Assembly (NCBI GenBank): GCA_016185505.1
Contig: JACPNL010000010.1
Span: 1 to 55,825 of the forward strand
Source of the DNA: Candidatus Yanofskyibacteriota bacterium
GTDB lineage: Bacteria; Patescibacteriota; Minisyncoccia; 2-02-FULL-40-12; GWA2-44-9
Direction: 5' to 3'
Length of the DNA: 55,825 bases
This document shows, piece after piece, positions 1,785 through 53,560 of the stretch; the stretch's first letter is position 1; the number at the start of each line of letters is the position of its first letter. The translations under genes were made by a program, and so were the position numbers. The notes below the pieces were generated by a model. The model ran no database searches and was not told where the DNA came from. It saw nothing but the letters and a program-made list of their open reading frames with translations.

Positions 1785-3665
1785 TTATTCCACAGTTGCC
1801 CGAATTCGGCGGATTCCGGCGCTTACGGATTCTTCTTTGGTTATTTTGAACTTGCCTATCTCGGCAGTGTTTGAAACATGAGGTCCTCCGCACAATTCTT
1901 TAGAAAAGAATTGTCCTGAGCTGGTCGAATTAGAGAGTTCGCGGTTAAACGGCTCAACGGCTTTATCCGTTGAGCCGTTTATTGAATTATCGGTTGTTTT
2001 GGGACCGATCGTATAAACTGTTACGCGATCAGGATATTTTTCTTTGAAAAACGCTAAAGCGCCTGATTTTATCGCATCTTCATAAGACATTTCGGTTTTA
2101 GTAACCGGCAGTTCTTTTTTTACAGCATCGTTAACCATATCCTCTACTTGCTTGAGTTCCTCGAGTGTTAATTTACGCGGGAATGTGAAATCAAACCTCA
2201 ACCGTTCCGGGGTTATATCAGAGCCCTGCTGTTTCACCTCTTCTCCAAGAATTTTTCTCAATGCTGCGTGAAGCAAATGTGTAGCGGTATGAAGACGGGT
2301 TTTCTTTTTCATCTCTTCGGCATTGGCGGCGGTCAAATCCCCTTCCGTTATCATGCCATGTCCACCAAATTTTTTCTCCGCTCCGGCGCGGGATATTTCT
2401 TGATGTTTTCTAAATTCCTCATCGAAATTCTCACGAGAAAGCTCTGTTGTTTTTTCTTTTCCTAATTCTTTAATAACTTCAAAAGGTAGGCCGTAACTTT
2501 CGTATAGTTTAAAGGCGTTCTCGGCATTTACGGATGGCATCTTTCCAAGCTCCTTTAGCCCTTGAGATAATGTCTTTTCAAATTTTTCTTTTTCTCGGTC
2601 AAACTCATGAATTATTAAATCGGCATTCAGTTCGGGATAATATTGCCCATAGATCTCTAATATTTTCGCAAAAATATCATGCATTAAAGATAGGTCAGAC
2701 CTGTGGATAAACGACTTCGCAAGTCGTTTATCCACAGGTGGGGTGGATTGAGTGGCGGTATAAAAATAAGTTATCACTCTCCTCATTAGCCGGCGCAAAA
2801 CATAACCCTGCTCTTTGTTTGACGGCCTGACCCCGTCGGTGATAAGAAATGCGATGGCCCGTGAATGGTCGGCGATAATTCTTTTAGCTCTAATATCTAA
2901 CTCCGAGGGCGCGAGTTTGATTATCGGTTCCAAAAGATCCGTTTCAAAAATATTTTTAACTCCCTGTACAACCATAGCAAGACGCTCTAATCCCATACCG
3001 GTGTCTATGCCAGCTGGTTTTAAGTGTTTAAATTTTGAAGGGTCGGTTTCTTTGAGCATTTGCTCTCTATTCCCTTTATAATAAAATTCGTTGAAGACGA
3101 TATTCCAAATCTCAACTCCGTCCACATATATTTCTGTTGTCGGACCGCATGGACCCTCATTCCCGGTCGGGCCCCAGGTGTTATCCTCAATACCCATTTT
3201 CTTAACCTCAATTGCGACGTTGTTGTTTTTAGCTATTTCTTTCCATATCAATTCTGATTCTTCATCTGCGGGCATACCTTCCGAACCGCTGAAAACAGAA
3301 ACGTAGTCAACCTTGAGTCCCAGTTCTTTTGTAATAAATTCGTATGCCCAAGTGATGGATGCTTCTTTCCAATACCCACCAAAAGAAAAATTGCCAAGCA
3401 TTTCGAAAAAAGTGAGATGTGATTCGTCTCCAACTTCGTCTATGTCCGAAGTTCGCATTGATTTCTGAATTGAAACAGTATTCAAGGAACCGAAATCCTT
3501 CATCGCGTCGGCCTCGCCGGTATAGTAGGGCTTGAACTGTTGCATTCCGGCGGTTGTGAAAAGCACCGACGGATCAGTTGGCAAAAGAGAAGATGACTCC
3601 ACCCACTTATGGTTTCTCTTCTCAAAAAAATCTTTAAATTTTTTACGTATCTTTTGATGTGTCAT
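1785..3665 (-). CDS. alaS: Alanyl-tRNA synthetase, short form ending after the CGGPHV region (no C-Ala domain)
   Basis: SSSLLPTDPSVLFTTAGMQQFKPYY, GNFSFGGYWK, HTATHLLHAALR and ELCGGPHV motifs. Confidence 0.95.
   Translation of the reverse strand: MTHQKIRKKFKDFFEKRNHKWVESSSLLPTDPSVLFTTAGMQQFKPYYTGEADAMKDFGSLNTVSIQKSMRTSDIDEVGDESHLTFFEMLGNFSFGGYWKEASITWAYEFITKELGLKVDYVSVFSGSEGMPADEESELIWKEIAKNNNVAIEVKKMGIEDNTWGPTGNEGPCGPTTEIYVDGVEIWNIVFNEFYYKGNREQMLKETDPSKFKHLKPAGIDTGMGLERLAMVVQGVKNIFETDLLEPIIKLAPSELDIRAKRIIADHSRAIAFLITDGVRPSNKEQGYVLRRLMRRVITYFYTATQSTPPVDKRLAKSFIHRSDLSLMHDIFAKILEIYGQYYPELNADLIIHEFDREKEKFEKTLSQGLKELGKMPSVNAENAFKLYESYGLPFEVIKELGKEKTTELSRENFDEEFRKHQEISRAGAEKKFGGHGMITEGDLTAANAEEMKKKTRLHTATHLLHAALRKILGEEVKQQGSDITPERLRFDFTFPRKLTLEELKQVEDMVNDAVKKELPVTKTEMSYEDAIKSGALAFFKEKYPDRVTVYTIGPKTTDNSINGSTDKAVEPFNRELSNSTSSGQFFSKELCGGPHVSNTAEIGKFKITKEESVSAGIRRIRATVE
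2700..2738. repeat. 39-bp palindromic element in alaS
   Basis: CCTGTGGATAAACGACTTCGCAAGTCGTTTATCCACAGG; read as PVDKRLAKSFIHR. Confidence 0.97.
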
Positions 3666-9808: not shown

Positions 9809-9825
9809 CAAGAACGTCTCGCCTG

Positions 9826-9884
9826 CCCCGCACCAACCCCGCCCCCTTTTTGAATGGCGGTCAGCGGATAAGGTTGGTGCGGGG
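9826..9884. repeat. 59-bp CCCCGCACCAACC...GGTTGGTGCGGGG palindromic element within the split tRNA
   Basis: 13-bp terminal stem; internal CCGCTGACCGCCATTCA (minus strand) shared with the element at 52756..52877. Confidence 0.85.
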
Positions 9885-20202: not shown

Positions 20203-21360
20203 TTACAATATTATTCCCCCTCCGAGAAGCTGCTGACCTTTATAAAATACGGCTGATTGACCGGGGGTTACGGCTGACTCTGGTTTTTTGAACACGATTT
20301 CGCCACTATTTTTTACAACCGCTTTAGACAACGGCGCCCTATAGCGCGTCCGCGCATCCAACTCCTCGCCCCTGTGGATAAACGACTTGCGAAGTCGTTT
20401 ATCCACAGGTTGAGCTATTGGATTTATCCAGTTTATAGCGGTTAATTTGAAATTTTGAGAGAGTAGATCTTTCTTCGAACCGACGTAAATGATGTTATTT
20501 TTGATATCTTTCCTAACAACAAAATAGGGGCCCTTGCCGTTCTTTATATCCAGACCGTGCCTTTGGCCGATGGTATAGTAGAACACGCCATCGTGTTGTC
20601 CAACAACACGCCCTGAGCGAGCAAAACGAGTCGAATGGGCAACATCCAACAAGATAATATTTCCGATCTTTGGCTTGATATAATTTTTTAAAAATTCTTT
20701 CATGTTTAACGGCCCGATGAAGCACACTCCCTGGCTATCTTTCTTGTCAGCCGTCGACAGGCCGAATTTTTTAGCCATTCTCCTAACCTCCGGTTTTGTA
20801 TAGTCACCAATCGGAAAGAAGCAATGTTTCAACTGCCTCTGGGTTAAGGTCCAGAGAAAATAGGATTGATCTTTGTTCTGGTCAACAGCTTTTAATAATT
20901 TATAGTCATTAATTTTTAATTTTTCATTTTTATTTTTTAATTTTCTTATGTAGTGTCCCGTCGCAATGTAATCCGCTCCTTCTTCCAATGCCTTCTCCAA
21001 AAATAGCCCGAACTTGATATGCTTATTGCACATTACATCCGGATTAGGCGTTTGACCGGTTTTATATTCTCGTATCATGTAGTCAGCCACTTCTTTTTTA
21101 TATTCTTGTGAAAAGTCCCACGTCAAAAGAGGAATGCCAATTTTTGCCGCTACCCGCATCGCGTCTTCTCGGTCTTGCTTCCAAAGACACCTGTGGATAA
21201 ACGACTTCGCAAGTCGTTTATCCACAGGTGGGCTCCATGGTTTCATAAAAACACCGGTTACATCGTAACCTTGTTTTTTCAACAGAGCAGCAGCCACAGA
21301 AGAGTCAACTCCTCCGGACATAGCAACATAAATCTTTTGTTTTTTAACTTGACGTTTCAT
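20203..21360 (-). CDS. mnmA: tRNA 2-thiouridylase MnmA
   Basis: AMSGGVDSSVAAALL, NPDVMCNKHIKFG, ATGHY, KDQSYFLWTL, KDSQGVCFIG, YTIGQRHGL; carries three in-frame palindromic insertions. Confidence 0.95.
   Translation of the reverse strand: MKRQVKKQKIYVAMSGGVDSSVAAALLKKQGYDVTGVFMKPWSPPVDKRLAKSFIHRCLWKQDREDAMRVAAKIGIPLLTWDFSQEYKKEVADYMIREYKTGQTPNPDVMCNKHIKFGLFLEKALEEGADYIATGHYIRKLKNKNEKLKINDYKLLKAVDQNKDQSYFLWTLTQRQLKHCFFPIGDYTKPEVRRMAKKFGLSTADKKDSQGVCFIGPLNMKEFLKNYIKPKIGNIILLDVAHSTRFARSGRVVGQHDGVFYYTIGQRHGLDIKNGKGPYFVVRKDIKNNIIYVGSKKDLLSQNFKLTAINWINPIAQPVDKRLRKSFIHRGEELDARTRYRAPLSKAVVKNSGEIVFKKPESAVTPGQSAVFYKGQQLLGGGIIL
20371..20409. repeat. 39-bp palindromic element in mnmA, loop inverted
   Basis: CCTGTGGATAAACGACTTGCGAAGTCGTTTATCCACAGG; read as PVDKRLRKSFIHR. 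Confidence 0.97.
21190..21228. repeat. 39-bp palindromic element in mnmA
   Basis: Identical to the alaS copy; read as PVDKRLAKSFIHR. Confidence 0.97.
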
Positions 21361-25004: not shown

Positions 25005-27044
25005 TTGATTATGATGTTACTCAATAAAAAAGCAACGCGTTTTTTAACTATTTTAATACTCTTGGTTATTTCTGGAGCTTATTTAACTTCAGATATTTCT
25101 GCCGCCCCAAACGAAGAATCAACCGTCATTCAAATAAACAATCAAAACCCCGGCCTGATAAGCAGCACTCCGGATATTTTTACCAACCTTGTTGCCTGCG
25201 CTCTGTGGCAAAAAGACAGCAACTGGGGACGAAACGGCAAACGAGGCAATCCTAACGATTTAAGCAATGACGCTATCGCCTATAAAAATTCTGCCAGCAT
25301 CGGCCTTGGCGGAGTGGATATTATTGATATTATAGGCGGCGTTGACGGACCCGACCCCCAGCCCGGTTGGATTGATGTCACCCAGCCGGGTGTTGCCGGC
25401 GTTTGGGTCAAGCCAGATCCCTGTAGCGGCGCCGGAGGGCCGCCCGGTCCGGGCGGTGGAGGCGGCGGTGTTCCAGTCGGCTCAAATCTTGGTATTAGCG
25501 GTGATACATTCACTATCGGCGGAGTTTCTAAATTTTTGGTTCTAGCTTCATATTTTGACGCCTTAGACGCTTCTAACCTCGGCGGCGATTTAGATTATCT
25601 AAAATCAAAAGGAATTGACGGGATAAGAATATTCCCGAACTGGTGGGATTTTGATCCGGATAGCCAGACCTTTAATCCCGGAAACACCCTAATGGACGTA
25701 AATGGGAATATTAGTAGTAGCCGCATGAGCGATCTGTTAAGCGTTTTAAGCGCGGCAAAGAGCAGAAACATGATAGTAGACGTAACTTTTGCCAGAGAAA
25801 CAGTGCCCGGACCATGCGACGGGGACAGAATCCCAAATGTAATGTGCATGTCCGAATTTATGGAAGGAACAGAATCGGCAGTAAGACAGATTAACTCGGC
25901 CGGATACGGCAATGTGTTTTTTGACATCCAAAACGAATTTGAACAATTCAACTTTTCAAATTCTGACTTAATAGCGATTAAAAATAGAATTAAAAGTGTA
26001 AATTCAAATTTTATAGTTTCCGCTTCAGAAGTCGGGGGCGGTTCCGGCATCGCGGTGAGCACCGGCATGGACATAGTGAACACTCACGAACCCAGAGACA
26101 ATTGGCCCTCAAGTGTCTCTAGCGTCGTCTCCTCTGCGACTTCAACCAGAAAGCCAATTTATCTTGGCGAGTCGGCCAGAGTTGGCGATGGAGCCGACAG
26201 TACTCAAGAGTTCATCACCGCTGTAAGCGATACAAAAAGAGCCGGCGGAGCGGCTTGGACTTTTCATAGCCGAGCTAATTTTAATCTGGACAACTCATCT
26301 TTACAGAACAATTATAACCAAATAGAGAAAGATTTTCTTGACCAGTTTTTGTCTTCATTAAACAGGGTCACTTGGGGCGCAACGGGAATAACGAGCGGAG
26401 GCGGAGGAACCCTACCACCCCCCGGTCCCGGCCCGGGGCCAGCGCCAGAACCATCCGGCCCTCCAATTATTAACGGCATTAGCCCGCAAAAAGCGGTCGT
26501 GGGAGAAACGGTAGAAATTATCGGTTCTAATCTGACAACATCCGTAAAACTAGAAAATCTTGAAAACGAAAATTTCTATACAATTACCGCGTTTGTTCGT
26601 CAAAATAATACGATTGCTTCCTTTCAAGTACCTGATCTTTCAGGCGGTGTTTACAAAATTTTTAGTTTAAGTCCGCAAGGAGACACGGAAAGTCCGCAAA
26701 ATCTTACAATCAGGTCAGGCGGCAATCCTTTCGGTCAGTCGGTCCAGCCCACCATCCCAACTGAAGGACTATTGGGATTCGGTCAACTTATAGCAATGAT
26801 CTTCACCTGGTCTCTCAATATTCTGGGCATTGTTGTTTTCGTAATGATATTCTTTGCCGGATTTCAGTGGTTCACCGCCGCCGGCAATACGGCAAAAGTA
26901 AATGAGGCCAAGTCCAGAATAACCAATGCGATCACCGGAGCTCTTATCCTTCTGGCGGCGTGGATAATATTATATACGATAAACCCTGATCTGGTCGGGG
27001 GCACGTTCACTTTGCCGGGGGCAGGGATAGAAAATAGTAATTAA
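25005..27044 (+). CDS. Secreted cellulase-like (TIM-barrel) protein with IPT/TIG-like domain and C-terminal TrbC/VirB2-like membrane module
   Basis: NVFFDIQNEFEQFN, PIYLGES; PPIINGISPQKAVVGETVEIIGSNL; FTWSLNILGIVVFVMIFFAGFQWFTAAGN...GALILLAAWIILYTINPDLV. Confidence 0.75.
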   Translation: MIMMLLNKKATRFLTILILLVISGAYLTSDISAAPNEESTVIQINNQNPGLISSTPDIFTNLVACALWQKDSNWGRNGKRGNPNDLSNDAIAYKNSASIGLGGVDIIDIIGGVDGPDPQPGWIDVTQPGVAGVWVKPDPCSGAGGPPGPGGGGGGVPVGSNLGISGDTFTIGGVSKFLVLASYFDALDASNLGGDLDYLKSKGIDGIRIFPNWWDFDPDSQTFNPGNTLMDVNGNISSSRMSDLLSVLSAAKSRNMIVDVTFARETVPGPCDGDRIPNVMCMSEFMEGTESAVRQINSAGYGNVFFDIQNEFEQFNFSNSDLIAIKNRIKSVNSNFIVSASEVGGGSGIAVSTGMDIVNTHEPRDNWPSSVSSVVSSATSTRKPIYLGESARVGDGADSTQEFITAVSDTKRAGGAAWTFHSRANFNLDNSSLQNNYNQIEKDFLDQFLSSLNRVTWGATGITSGGGGTLPPPGPGPGPAPEPSGPPIINGISPQKAVVGETVEIIGSNLTTSVKLENLENENFYTITAFVRQNNTIASFQVPDLSGGVYKIFSLSPQGDTESPQNLTIRSGGNPFGQSVQPTIPTEGLLGFGQLIAMIFTWSLNILGIVVFVMIFFAGFQWFTAAGNTAKVNEAKSRITNAITGALILLAAWIILYTINPDLVGGTFTLPGAGIENSN

Positions 27045-27070: not shown

Positions 27071-29221
27071 ATGAAAAAATATTTACCCATCGGCTTCTTT
27101 TCTCTCCTTTATCTTTTTAGTATCTCTCCTGTAGCCGTTGCAAATACTTTGCCCGCGCCTAACCACTCTATTTTTTTTGGTTACTATCATGCGGACGCTC
27201 AATACGGCGATTTTAAAAATGAAGTCAAAGATTACACGAACACTCAAATAATTATCGGCGATAGCTGGATCAGGCCGCCTGATGTCGCGGAATCGGATAT
27301 CCAGAAATTAAACGAAGCTCTTAGCGAAACCGCCGCTCTCGGCCAAAAAATTGTTCTTATTCCTTCGGGTGATTTAGATATTATACTGAATGCGGCTGCG
27401 CCATTTTGGGATAATGTCGCGTTTATTTATTTTGCCGATGAACCGAATTGGGATAAAGCCACAACCGAGGAAAATATCGGCTCATTTAAAAATAAAATTC
27501 GCAGGGCCGGGCTTTCTCAAAAAGAAATTGCCATAAATTATACTCCTGAACAGATACTTTCAGGAACGGGGTACCAAGCCGGTAATTTGAATATAGTCGG
27601 ATTTGAAGCATATGTTGACCCCGCGCAACAAAATAACCAGGATATCGTCGCTGACTTAAACGCGCAGATAGACAATCTCAAACAAAAAATAGGCAATAAA
27701 CAAATGTTCATCGTAATTCAGGCCTACGACAGAAATGGGGATTGGAAAAATATAACCTCACTCCAAAATATTCAAATACCGCCCTATCTGGCCGCTTATA
27801 ATGACGAACGTGTCATCGGATTGCTGATGTTCTCTTATGCCAGACCGGGAGGCACGCGGGATAACCCTATCTTAGCAGAACAGCATCGTTTGATCTGGCA
27901 AGCGATGCAAGGATTAACTGTTGACGTTGATCCTAAGAATATACCGGCCGTTGCGCCTACAAGCGTCTGGAGTCCTTCTCAAACCAATAACGGCTGGTGG
28001 CCGTCTTTGTCCCCGGACGGCAAATACGTTGCCTATGGTAATTTCGGCGAGAGCTGGGTAACTGACCTTTCAACTGGACAAAACTATGACCTTTCAAAGC
28101 CAGCAGGCCTGCCAGATGGAGCCCGTTGCAGGGGCGGACAATGGATAACATCAAGCAAGGTCACTTTTATTTGCGACAGCATTCCGGGGATAACTGGATT
28201 TTACCGATATGAAGCAGCCATTGGCGAGTGGATAGCGAGAAAAACCGATGACGACCCGAACAACGTAGTGAGCAGTATATTTGTCGCAAAAGACGGCCAC
28301 TGGGCATCTTTCTTAGCTCTAACCAGAATTATTAAAGACAACACAGTCCTTACCGATAACCAACCCGGAGGGGCAATAGCCATAAGCGGTGACTTGCTAG
28401 TAAACGCCTGCACCAACGAGAACCAGCAGATCTGCGTATGGGACAGGACTAACCTTTCTACGTCTTACGATGTCAGAACTCCCTTATTTGAAATGGATAT
28501 GGAAGATGGATATATTACTTATGGCGGATTTGGACCGATCCGAGGTATAGACCCGAGCGGAAAAGATATTGATCTGACGGCAACTGCCTGGAAACGAGAA
28601 GGATCGCCAAGAGTATTAATGGTCAACGGACAACCTTGGGTCGCCACTTATACTTGGGACGACACGTTGGGAGTTTCCAACGTATTGATCCGGCCGTGGG
28701 GAGAAAGAAAAAGTATCGTCTTGCAAATGGATGCGGCATCTTTAAGCGTGGTTTACACAAACGGAAACTTCATAGTTGCGGCTAATAACGATCGGGGCGG
28801 ATTAATAGTTCAAACCATCCCCGCGGATTCGCCAAGAGTTGATCTATCAGGCGGCTTGCCGTCAGAAACACCGGGGTTAAGTCCTGCAAACAAAAAGAGC
28901 TTTTCAAGTCCGGTTTTACCCGTTATCCCCACTGAAGGCCTCCCTTCTTTCGGCCAACTTATAGCCACGATCTTCACCTGGTCTCTCAATATTTTGGGCA
29001 TTGTGGTTTTTGTCATGATATTCTTTGCCGGATTTCAGTGGTTCACCGCCGCCGGCAATACGGCAAAAGTAAATGAGGCCAAGTCCAGAATAACCAATGC
29101 GATCACCGGAGCTCTTATACTTCTTGCGGCGTGGATAATATTATATACGATAAACCCTGATCTGGTCGGGGGAGTACTTACGCTACCGGGGGTAGGAACG
29201 GAAACAGAAACTGGAAATTAA
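27071..29221 (+). CDS. Secreted TIM-barrel-like and beta-propeller-like protein with the same C-terminal TrbC/VirB2-like module
   Basis: N-terminal signal; repeated PDGKYVAY-type blades; C-terminus near-identical to the upstream gene. Confidence 0.75.
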   Translation: MKKYLPIGFFSLLYLFSISPVAVANTLPAPNHSIFFGYYHADAQYGDFKNEVKDYTNTQIIIGDSWIRPPDVAESDIQKLNEALSETAALGQKIVLIPSGDLDIILNAAAPFWDNVAFIYFADEPNWDKATTEENIGSFKNKIRRAGLSQKEIAINYTPEQILSGTGYQAGNLNIVGFEAYVDPAQQNNQDIVADLNAQIDNLKQKIGNKQMFIVIQAYDRNGDWKNITSLQNIQIPPYLAAYNDERVIGLLMFSYARPGGTRDNPILAEQHRLIWQAMQGLTVDVDPKNIPAVAPTSVWSPSQTNNGWWPSLSPDGKYVAYGNFGESWVTDLSTGQNYDLSKPAGLPDGARCRGGQWITSSKVTFICDSIPGITGFYRYEAAIGEWIARKTDDDPNNVVSSIFVAKDGHWASFLALTRIIKDNTVLTDNQPGGAIAISGDLLVNACTNENQQICVWDRTNLSTSYDVRTPLFEMDMEDGYITYGGFGPIRGIDPSGKDIDLTATAWKREGSPRVLMVNGQPWVATYTWDDTLGVSNVLIRPWGERKSIVLQMDAASLSVVYTNGNFIVAANNDRGGLIVQTIPADSPRVDLSGGLPSETPGLSPANKKSFSSPVLPVIPTEGLPSFGQLIATIFTWSLNILGIVVFVMIFFAGFQWFTAAGNTAKVNEAKSRITNAITGALILLAAWIILYTINPDLVGGVLTLPGVGTETETGN

Positions 29222-51460: not shown

Positions 51461-51655
51461 AATGGTATAGAAACATAGAAATAGGTTGTTGGAAATTGGA
51501 AAATGGTATAGAAAGTGGAAAATGGAAAAAGGGTTAAGAAAAAGGGAGGAAAGAAGATGAAAAAACGGTTAATTTCTATTTTCTTATTTACTAACCAATT
51601 TCTAATTTCTATCTTCCATACCAACTTCCATTTTCCATATCACCAATTTCTGGAT
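51461..51655. repeat. Inverted short-period arms without an ORF (GGAAATTGGAAAATGGTATAGAAA type)
   Basis: TAGAAATAGGTTGTTGGAAATTGGAAAATGGTATAGAAA ... TTTCTAATTTCTATCTTCCATACCAACTTCCATTTTCCATATCACCAATTTCTGG. Confidence 0.85.
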
Positions 51656-51676
51656 TGCGCGTGGCGCCAACGAATA

Positions 51677-53560
51677 ATGTCATATAAAAAACTCTCCATA
51701 TTAGTAATATTAGTTGCGCTGGTTTTGTCCATAACAAGCTTGTGGGACGACTCTTTCATCGTTGATGAGGTACCTCATGTCGGAGCCGGATATTCATATA
51801 TTACAAAAGGCGATATGCGGTTAAATCCCGAACACCCACCTCTGGCAAAAGATATAGCCGGAGCAGCTTTATCTTTTCTGGCTATAGATCAAACGGTATT
51901 TTCAACACAATATTGGGTTACTGATATAAATGGACAATGGAATTTCGGAAGAATTTTGATATATAACTCATCAAATGACGTTAATGCTATCACGAGAACC
52001 GCTAAAACGACGATGCTCATATTTTTCGTATTATCGGCTATCCTGATATACCGGTGGACGCGAGAACGATATGGAGATAGGGCGGCCTTCATCGCAACTT
52101 TGTTGTTTTCTTTCTCGCCCACGGTTCTGGCCCACTCGCGTTTTGTCACCACCGATATGCCGGCGCTGTTCGGAGTGCTTCTCGGTACTTACTTTTTTAT
52201 CAAATATTTACAGAAGCCGTCTCGAAGAACATTCTGGCTCGCGGTTCTGGCATTCGGCGTTGCCCAACTAACCAAATTTTCCGTTGTGCTTCTCGCGCCT
52301 CTATTCATATTGATGGTAATCGCGTGGTGCATAGCAAATTCATTATCTTTCAGAAAGTCGGCTGTTTTAGCCACTCGCTCACTGGTGTTGATGACGACGG
52401 GAATCATTCTTGTTGTCTGGCCGGTTTACGCTCTCCATACGATGAATTATCCGCCGGAGAAACAAAGCGCCGACACGGAATTTCATCTTGGTTCTTACGG
52501 CAACCGTTTATTTGCTGATCCCGTTGTATGGGCGTCAGACAAACCAGTCATAAGACCACTCGCCTATTATGCCACCGGAATTCTTATGGTTAATCAGAGA
52601 GCCATAGGCGGCAATAACACATTCTTTCTCGGCGAAGTAAGAAACTATGCCTGGAAACATTATTTTCCCGTCGTGTATGGGATAAAGGAACCAATTGCGT
52701 TTTGGGGATTGGTGGTAATCGTACTTTTGGCTTTGAGCCTGAAGGTTAAAAATTGCCCCGCACCAAACTTTTCCGCTGACCCCGCAGGAAGTTTTCCCGC
52801 TGACCGCCAATCAGATAGAGGGCGGACTTCCAGCGGGGCAGGCCGCCATTCAGAAAAGAGGCGGGTTTGGTACGGGGTTAGTTTTTGTTTCCAATCGCTT
52901 CGCTCTTGGACAAAAACTAACTTCGTTGAGTTCTCAATGCTGTTGTGGCTCGCGATATATTGGTATTTAAGTATTCGTGCCAATTTGAACATCGGGGTTA
53001 GGCACCTACTGCCCACTTACGGGTTTGTATTTATATTACTGGCTGGCCAGCTAGAGCGTATTACGTATTACGTATTACGTATTAAGAGGAAAATAGTCCT
53101 TACTACTTACTGCTTACTACTTACTGCTTTGCTTGGTTGGTATATCGTAGATGTCGTCCGAGTACACCCCTACTATTTAACTTATTTCAATCAACTGGCG
53201 GGCGGACCGGCGGGTGGCCACCGATACGCCGTTGATTCTAACTTGGACTGGGGACAGGACTTAAAGCGGTTAGCAGACTGGGTTGAAAAACGAGGGATAA
53301 ATAAAATTCACTTGGATTATTTTGGTTGGGCTGACCAAGGTTATTATTTAAAAGACAAACTTGTATGGATAAACGCAGGAACATATAAAGACGCTCGTGA
53401 CTTTCTCGCTCAAAATCCTAATGGTGGGCATATCGCCGTATCGGCTTCATTCTACACGGGTTCACGAGGCGACCCGGTCAACAACTACATCTGGCTGGAC
53501 GCGTATCGTCCAATAGCAACTATCGGGAACTCTATATTTGTGTGGAAAATTAGACCTTGA
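51677..53560 (+). CDS. Multi-pass dolichyl-phosphate-mannosyltransferase (PMT/GT39)-like protein
   Basis: IVDEVPHVGAGYSYI...LNPEHPPLAKDIAG; long TM series; track start 51515 reads through a repeat arm. Confidence 0.85.
   Translation: MSYKKLSILVILVALVLSITSLWDDSFIVDEVPHVGAGYSYITKGDMRLNPEHPPLAKDIAGAALSFLAIDQTVFSTQYWVTDINGQWNFGRILIYNSSNDVNAITRTAKTTMLIFFVLSAILIYRWTRERYGDRAAFIATLLFSFSPTVLAHSRFVTTDMPALFGVLLGTYFFIKYLQKPSRRTFWLAVLAFGVAQLTKFSVVLLAPLFILMVIAWCIANSLSFRKSAVLATRSLVLMTTGIILVVWPVYALHTMNYPPEKQSADTEFHLGSYGNRLFADPVVWASDKPVIRPLAYYATGILMVNQRAIGGNNTFFLGEVRNYAWKHYFPVVYGIKEPIAFWGLVVIVLLALSLKVKNCPAPNFSADPAGSFPADRQSDRGRTSSGAGRHSEKRRVWYGVSFCFQSLRSWTKTNFVEFSMLLWLAIYWYLSIRANLNIGVRHLLPTYGFVFILLAGQLERITYYVLRIKRKIVLTTYCLLLTALLGWYIVDVVRVHPYYLTYFNQLAGGPAGGHRYAVDSNLDWGQDLKRLADWVEKRGINKIHLDYFGWADQGYYLKDKLVWINAGTYKDARDFLAQNPNGGHIAVSASFYTGSRGDPVNNYIWLDAYRPIATIGNSIFVWKIRP
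52756..52877. repeat. Nested pair of CCCCGCA... palindromic elements within the glycosyltransferase gene
   Basis: Outer CCCCGCACCAAAC...GTTTGGTACGGGG interrupted by inner CCCCGCAGGAAGT...ACTTCCAGCGGGG (52780..52838). Confidence 0.9.

Follow-up and report, generated by a model that had tools for sequence, protein, structure and literature searches.

An in-frame palindromic element nested inside a member of its own family within a PMT-like glycosyltransferase gene of Candidatus Yanofskybacteria

The best-known palindromes carried in frame within protein genes are those of Rickettsia and Wolbachia, and some intragenic REPs do the same in other bacteria; the original work on RPEs is reportedly that of Ogata and colleagues. 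RPEs and Wolbachia palindromic elements (WPEs) are short palindromes that lie in frame in conserved genes and add a peptide segment to the product (PMC10969869, PMC3767692). Most REPs are intergenic; intragenic copies usually come as dimers or groups, code for 20-30 residues, and favor DNA repair genes such as uvrA, uvrB, uvrD, and polA, and tRNA synthetase genes (PMC3733652). REPs are themselves targeted by IS1397, IS621, ISPsy8, and ISRm22, sometimes at the palindrome's axis of symmetry (PMC1525189). Here we analyze a 55,825-nucleotide stretch of DNA (the window) from the genome of an uncultured groundwater bacterium of Candidatus Yanofskybacteria, in which one palindromic element sits inside another in a coding sequence. 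By description, the Yanofskybacteria palindrome resembles RPEs and WPEs in lying in frame inside conserved genes and adding a peptide segment, but the first RPE family described measures ~150 bp and has alphaproteobacterial hosts, whereas the unit described here is 63 bp long with a CRRG tail. As with the IS that target REPs, a resident palindrome appears to be the specific target; in those systems, however, a full IS with its transposase enters, while here a small palindrome enters and the gene stays open. We found no description in the literature searched of in-frame nesting at one internal site for RPEs (PMC10969869, PMC3767692), of small palindromes that nest in frame within a coding one, or of such an element in Yanofskybacteria, Parcubacteria, or CPR. 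The phenomenon is thereby extended to a streamlined Patescibacteria lineage, with small inserts in the core genes polA, uvrB, priA, and trpS.

The host gene had been called GT39-like in a first-pass annotation made from the window alone, and Pfam supports this identity (Table 1); the ATG at 51677 is the probable true start, since homology begins near residue 54. The annotation drew a nest at 52756-52877 in which removal of a 63-bp inner unit leaves a 59-bp hairpin and the gene remains open, and we found the lengths, the coordinates, and the open frame to be exact, the reading frame running uninterrupted through both elements. It had also matched the outer remainder with 9826-9884 on the minus strand; the length (59 bp) agrees, but the sequences are only close, with 7 of 59 positions different (~88% identity). 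The compensated inner stem, AGGAAGT/ACTTCCA, is as it described. On two features it was silent: other copies, too, have CAGG, the last four of the 63 inner bases, at their 3′ end, and a second hairpin lies directly after the outer copy. Nor did it recognize the broader picture of in-frame copies in core genes, a recurrent nesting site, and a likeness to RPEs and REPs. The closest sib of the inner unit lies at G000:C19:18415-18477, and the inner copy has private bases (CCAATCAGATAGAG) that are absent from every other copy aligned. In a check for the terminal inverted repeats and target-site duplication of a MITE of a DDE transposon, arms of 13 bp were seen, and the inner insertion would allow a duplication of at most 2 bp (CC); because CC is shared, its boundary slides by up to two bases, so that a CC duplication is possible. 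DNA folding z-scores against shuffles range from -4.4 to -5.9 (inner unit -4.4, whole feature -5.9), and a chance origin of the hairpin feature is excluded.

Table 1. Positions of the nested elements, their host gene, and related features in the window
Feature	Position	Strand	Details
Host gene, PMT/GT39-like membrane glycosyltransferase	51515-53560	+	Pfam PMT_2 and PMT
Outer element, left part	52756-52779	+	5′ arm CCCCGCACCAAAC, then unpaired core TTTTCCGCTGA as far as the insertion point; first part of the split 59-bp outer hairpin
Inner 63-bp unit	52780-52842	+	59-bp hairpin CCCCGCAGGAAGT...ACTTCCAGCGGGG of the AGGAAG/CTTCC stem subfamily, then CAGG; 21 codons; E 5e-18
Outer element, right part	52843-52877	+	CCGCC hairpin loop, GGCGG, 3′ arm GTTTGGTACGGGG; second part of the 59-bp outer hairpin; covariance model scores 52843-52864 as a fragment
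Second hairpin module TTAGTTTTTGTTTCCAATCGCTTCGCTCTTGGACAAAAACTAA	52878-52920	+	Joined to the outer PMT copy; direct reading
Solo CAGG-tailed copy	9822-9884	-	tRNA-rich region, inside tRNA 5′-half-like sequence between tRNA-Arg and tRNA-Pro
alaS with second, unrelated palindrome	1785-3665	-	
mnmA with two copies of the second, unrelated palindrome	20203-21360	-	

Orthologues bear directly on whether this sequence arrived by insertion. The inner unit is absent from all 15 aligned orthologues, and 14 of them lack any element; conserved non-palindromic sequence of the same length, which the first-pass annotation had named as the observation that would speak against a nest, was not found, these 14 having only a short variable loop. 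The exception, from the sister species G002, has the same outer element, but at CTGA^CCGCC it holds another palindrome, of 48 bp, adding 16 codons in frame. Because the loop varies among orthologues, a clean empty site of the outer copy is not reconstructable. The PMT locus is nevertheless empty in one species of the genus and filled in two others, each with its own inner palindrome, so that insertion order and site preference can be read from it directly; it also lends itself as a natural test of how genes can gain protein segments from mobile DNA without being destroyed. We conclude that the nested feature is real and well supported as an insertion. In the same PMT gene, 53058-53128 contains in-frame simple-sequence expansions, consisting of CGTATTA repeats and TTACTACTTACTGC repeats.

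To define the family, we built a covariance model from six copies: five full-length copies of the window genome and the rejoined outer copy. The 681-kb genome holds six full-length copies with E below 1e-17, of which the sixth (C13:9736-9798) was found by the model itself, and the 13-mer core has five exact occurrences there against none for a backwards control. Across 58 genomes, the covariance search that the first-pass annotation had put forward as a check recovered the family in 11 of the 28 genomes of the window's own GTDB family (Ca. Yanofskybacteria) and in none of the 30 genomes outside it, and led on to further nested cases. Covariance and pattern searches together give ~50 copies. 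A refined model, run on the 28 family genomes, again returned 11, and half-element pattern searches added nested copies missed by the models, with few control hits. Exact-core scans matched only Candidatus Yanofskybacteria among named genomes and gave no match in IMG/VR; an Rfam gathering search of the window reported tRNAs only. In an alignment of 43 copies, standard pairs fill 94.9% of pair cells, eight pairs change on both sides, and 0 of 500 shuffles did as well, although the alignment was fitted to the structure and the result is biased in its favor. A CTGA/TCAG loop pseudoknot was considered and dropped by eye; copies with TAAG or CTAA do not co-vary. The site of the solo copy in the tRNA region is also occupied in another genus (G011:C2:223718-223780). 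The idea that this copy splits an intact tRNA was rejected, ARAGORN having recovered no further tRNA once the element was removed in silico.

The copies are of two kinds. Units with a CRRG tail (C[AG][AG]G), usually 63 bp long, lie in frame inside genes in 17 of 23 cases (including, by direct reading, an mnmA N-terminus copy in G007:C5), compared with 1 of 24 copies whose 3′ ends differ (Fisher p = 2e-6, computed on the lower count of 16/23). The non-CRRG copies are nearly all intergenic, and several of them, in related genomes, run on into the second hairpin module that follows the outer PMT copy (direct reading). The 3′ tails include CAGG/CAAG/CGAG/CGGG, TTAA, TTAT, TTCC, CTTC, TAAG, and others, and the 5′ arm is usually preceded by A. 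According to NCBIfam, hosts are murE, uvrB, a nucleotide-sugar (NDP-sugar) dehydrogenase, polA, a pheS-like ligase, a glcD-like oxidase, pcrA, uppP, a phosphoglucose/phosphomannose isomerase, priA, trpS, and holA, several of them with scores below NCBI's curated cut-offs, so that the names of those are family-level. Alignments with solved structures likewise point to insertion and not divergence: the insert forms extra residues immediately past KMSK in TrpS of G011, lies at the break between two aligned segments in UvrB of the window genome, and is extra sequence facing a gap in PcrA of G006. Like RPEs and WPEs, the family includes palindromes that lie in frame inside conserved protein genes. 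With REPs it has in common a hairpin bearing a short conserved tail at one of its feet, dispersal with compensatory change (in the 43 copies), and intragenic copies in repair and tRNA synthetase genes; unlike REPs, however, the CRRG-tailed units are mostly genic, and membership among REPs fails because there is no GTAG/CGTC tag, CGTC standing at the 3′ end of 1 of 47 copies. A separate feature of the murE gene in L001 (G000:C6) is a long palindrome spanning the conserved PDSL region (CAGATTCTTTGCGAAGCGTTTATCAAACGCTTCGCAAGAATCTG), at ~1420-1480, upstream of the element copy.

The internal site occupied in the PMT gene recurs. All seven exact copies of the 48-bp palindrome in G002 lie at CTGA^CCGCC of outer elements, one of them in frame inside relA/spoT (NCBIfam), with the caveat that an identical insert in seven outer copies could reflect spread by gene conversion. 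Units of the AGGAAG type occupy the same site in uppP (G002:C5) and in G006:C9, both as collapsed nests; two G001 copies have other inserts within a few bases of CTGA^CCGCC, and in other copies the terminal loop contains a short palindrome. The base before CRRG units is A in 21 of 23 and the base after CAGG is C in 15 of 16, a pattern with which the internal CTGA^CC agrees. We tentatively propose that the unpaired core CTGA^CCGCC may be a preferred landing site, at which different palindrome families would insert repeatedly and in frame, with inserts growing and diversifying by self-nesting and collapsed nests giving rise to hybrid elements. Had the nested unit instead formed once and moved as a composite, its recurrence at one site would reflect inheritance and not repeated targeting. 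Such an origin would suit the sharing of one site by AGGAAG-type inner units of three genomes and the identity of the 48-bp insert in the seven G002 copies, most of which also share a loop palindrome; but the orthologous PMT copies of G000 (the window genome) and G002 hold different inner palindromes, copies with an identical inner insert differ in outer stems and 3′ modules, and we consider a composite unlikely. Inner sequences might also have spread among resident outer copies by recombination or gene conversion via the shared core, without transposition. This, too, seems improbable to us: the collapsed remnants at G002:C5:19497 and G006:C9:3952 resemble outer-by-inner core recombination, yet the shared arms measure just ~13-24 bp, and solo CAGG units are also found at unrelated sites without homology.

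Returning to repeated insertion, our best reading of the family is a non-autonomous REP/RPE-like coding palindrome with an unpaired core as the preferred landing site for further palindromes, and the PMT locus probably records two insertion rounds of a small, non-autonomous hairpin element that is confined to this Ca. Yanofskybacteria family. In the first, which predates the split between the window species and G002, as the shared insertion site shows, the outer element (the 59-bp hairpin with the second, 43-bp hairpin) inserted into a variable loop of the PMT-like gene. In the second, the CAGG-tailed 63-bp unit entered the outer copy between CTGA and CCGCC in the window species, and in G002 a different 48-bp palindrome entered the same position. 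Insertions of the 63-bp unit lie mostly after A and before C, with a duplication of at most 2 bp. We postulate mobilization in trans by a single-strand (HUH/Y1-like) transposase, or a similar enzyme, that would recognize the folded hairpin; the resident unpaired core might be preferred for its exposure in the hairpin and for the A^C target within it. Since the unit is 21 codons long and open in several frames, it can be carried as a tolerated protein insert, as the in-frame copies in many core genes show; the encoded peptide would have no fixed function, the insert persisting because it is nearly neutral in loops. Selection of the inserts as functional peptides, for example as new loops or interaction segments, is in our estimation very unlikely. 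In 16 of 18 genic copies the element is oriented with the coding strand (p = 0.001), and the preferred frame gives PAP..SADRHSEKGR..W.GAG, as such selection might predict; however, at least three frames are used (PAP..SADRHSE, TPHQ..PLT, and PAPHQ..SEWRSA) with unrelated peptides, and the compensatory stem change maintains the fold of the DNA or RNA, not the sequence of the peptide. An assembly artefact in this metagenome-derived draft is hardly credible, although the draft has 32 contigs and the element is repeated: the inner copy has its private bases, nesting occurs in separate genomes, and the frame is intact.

As for the enzyme, 10 of 11 element-bearing genomes of the GTDB family have Y1 transposase genes, compared with 5 of 17 without the element (p = 0.002), an association that may merely mirror general mobile-element load and shared ancestry. 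A RAYT as the linked enzyme was also examined through flanking palindromes and gained no support, this element family flanking the Y1 gene in 0 of 17 neighborhoods inspected in the GTDB family, where other palindromes are found. By analogy, Y1 (RAYT-type) enzymes are candidates for acting on the family. Y1 genes in this genome are palindrome-flanked, in the manner of RAYT/TIRYT-flanking palindromes, and one such palindrome lies in frame in alaS and mnmA; it is, however, a perfect 40-44 bp hairpin with no visible sequence resemblance to the family described here. This unrelated palindrome (ACCTGTGGATAAACGACTTCGCAAGTCGTTTATCCACAGGT) occurs once in alaS (2699-2742) and twice in mnmA (20370-20413 and 21189-21232), each time in frame, and also flanks the Y1 transposase gene at G000:C3 (L163). 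Thus, Y1-linked palindromes do enter genes here. Elsewhere in the window, two 256-bp direct repeats that are 91% identical (26778-27033 and 28949-29204) lie near the ends of two neighboring large ORFs.
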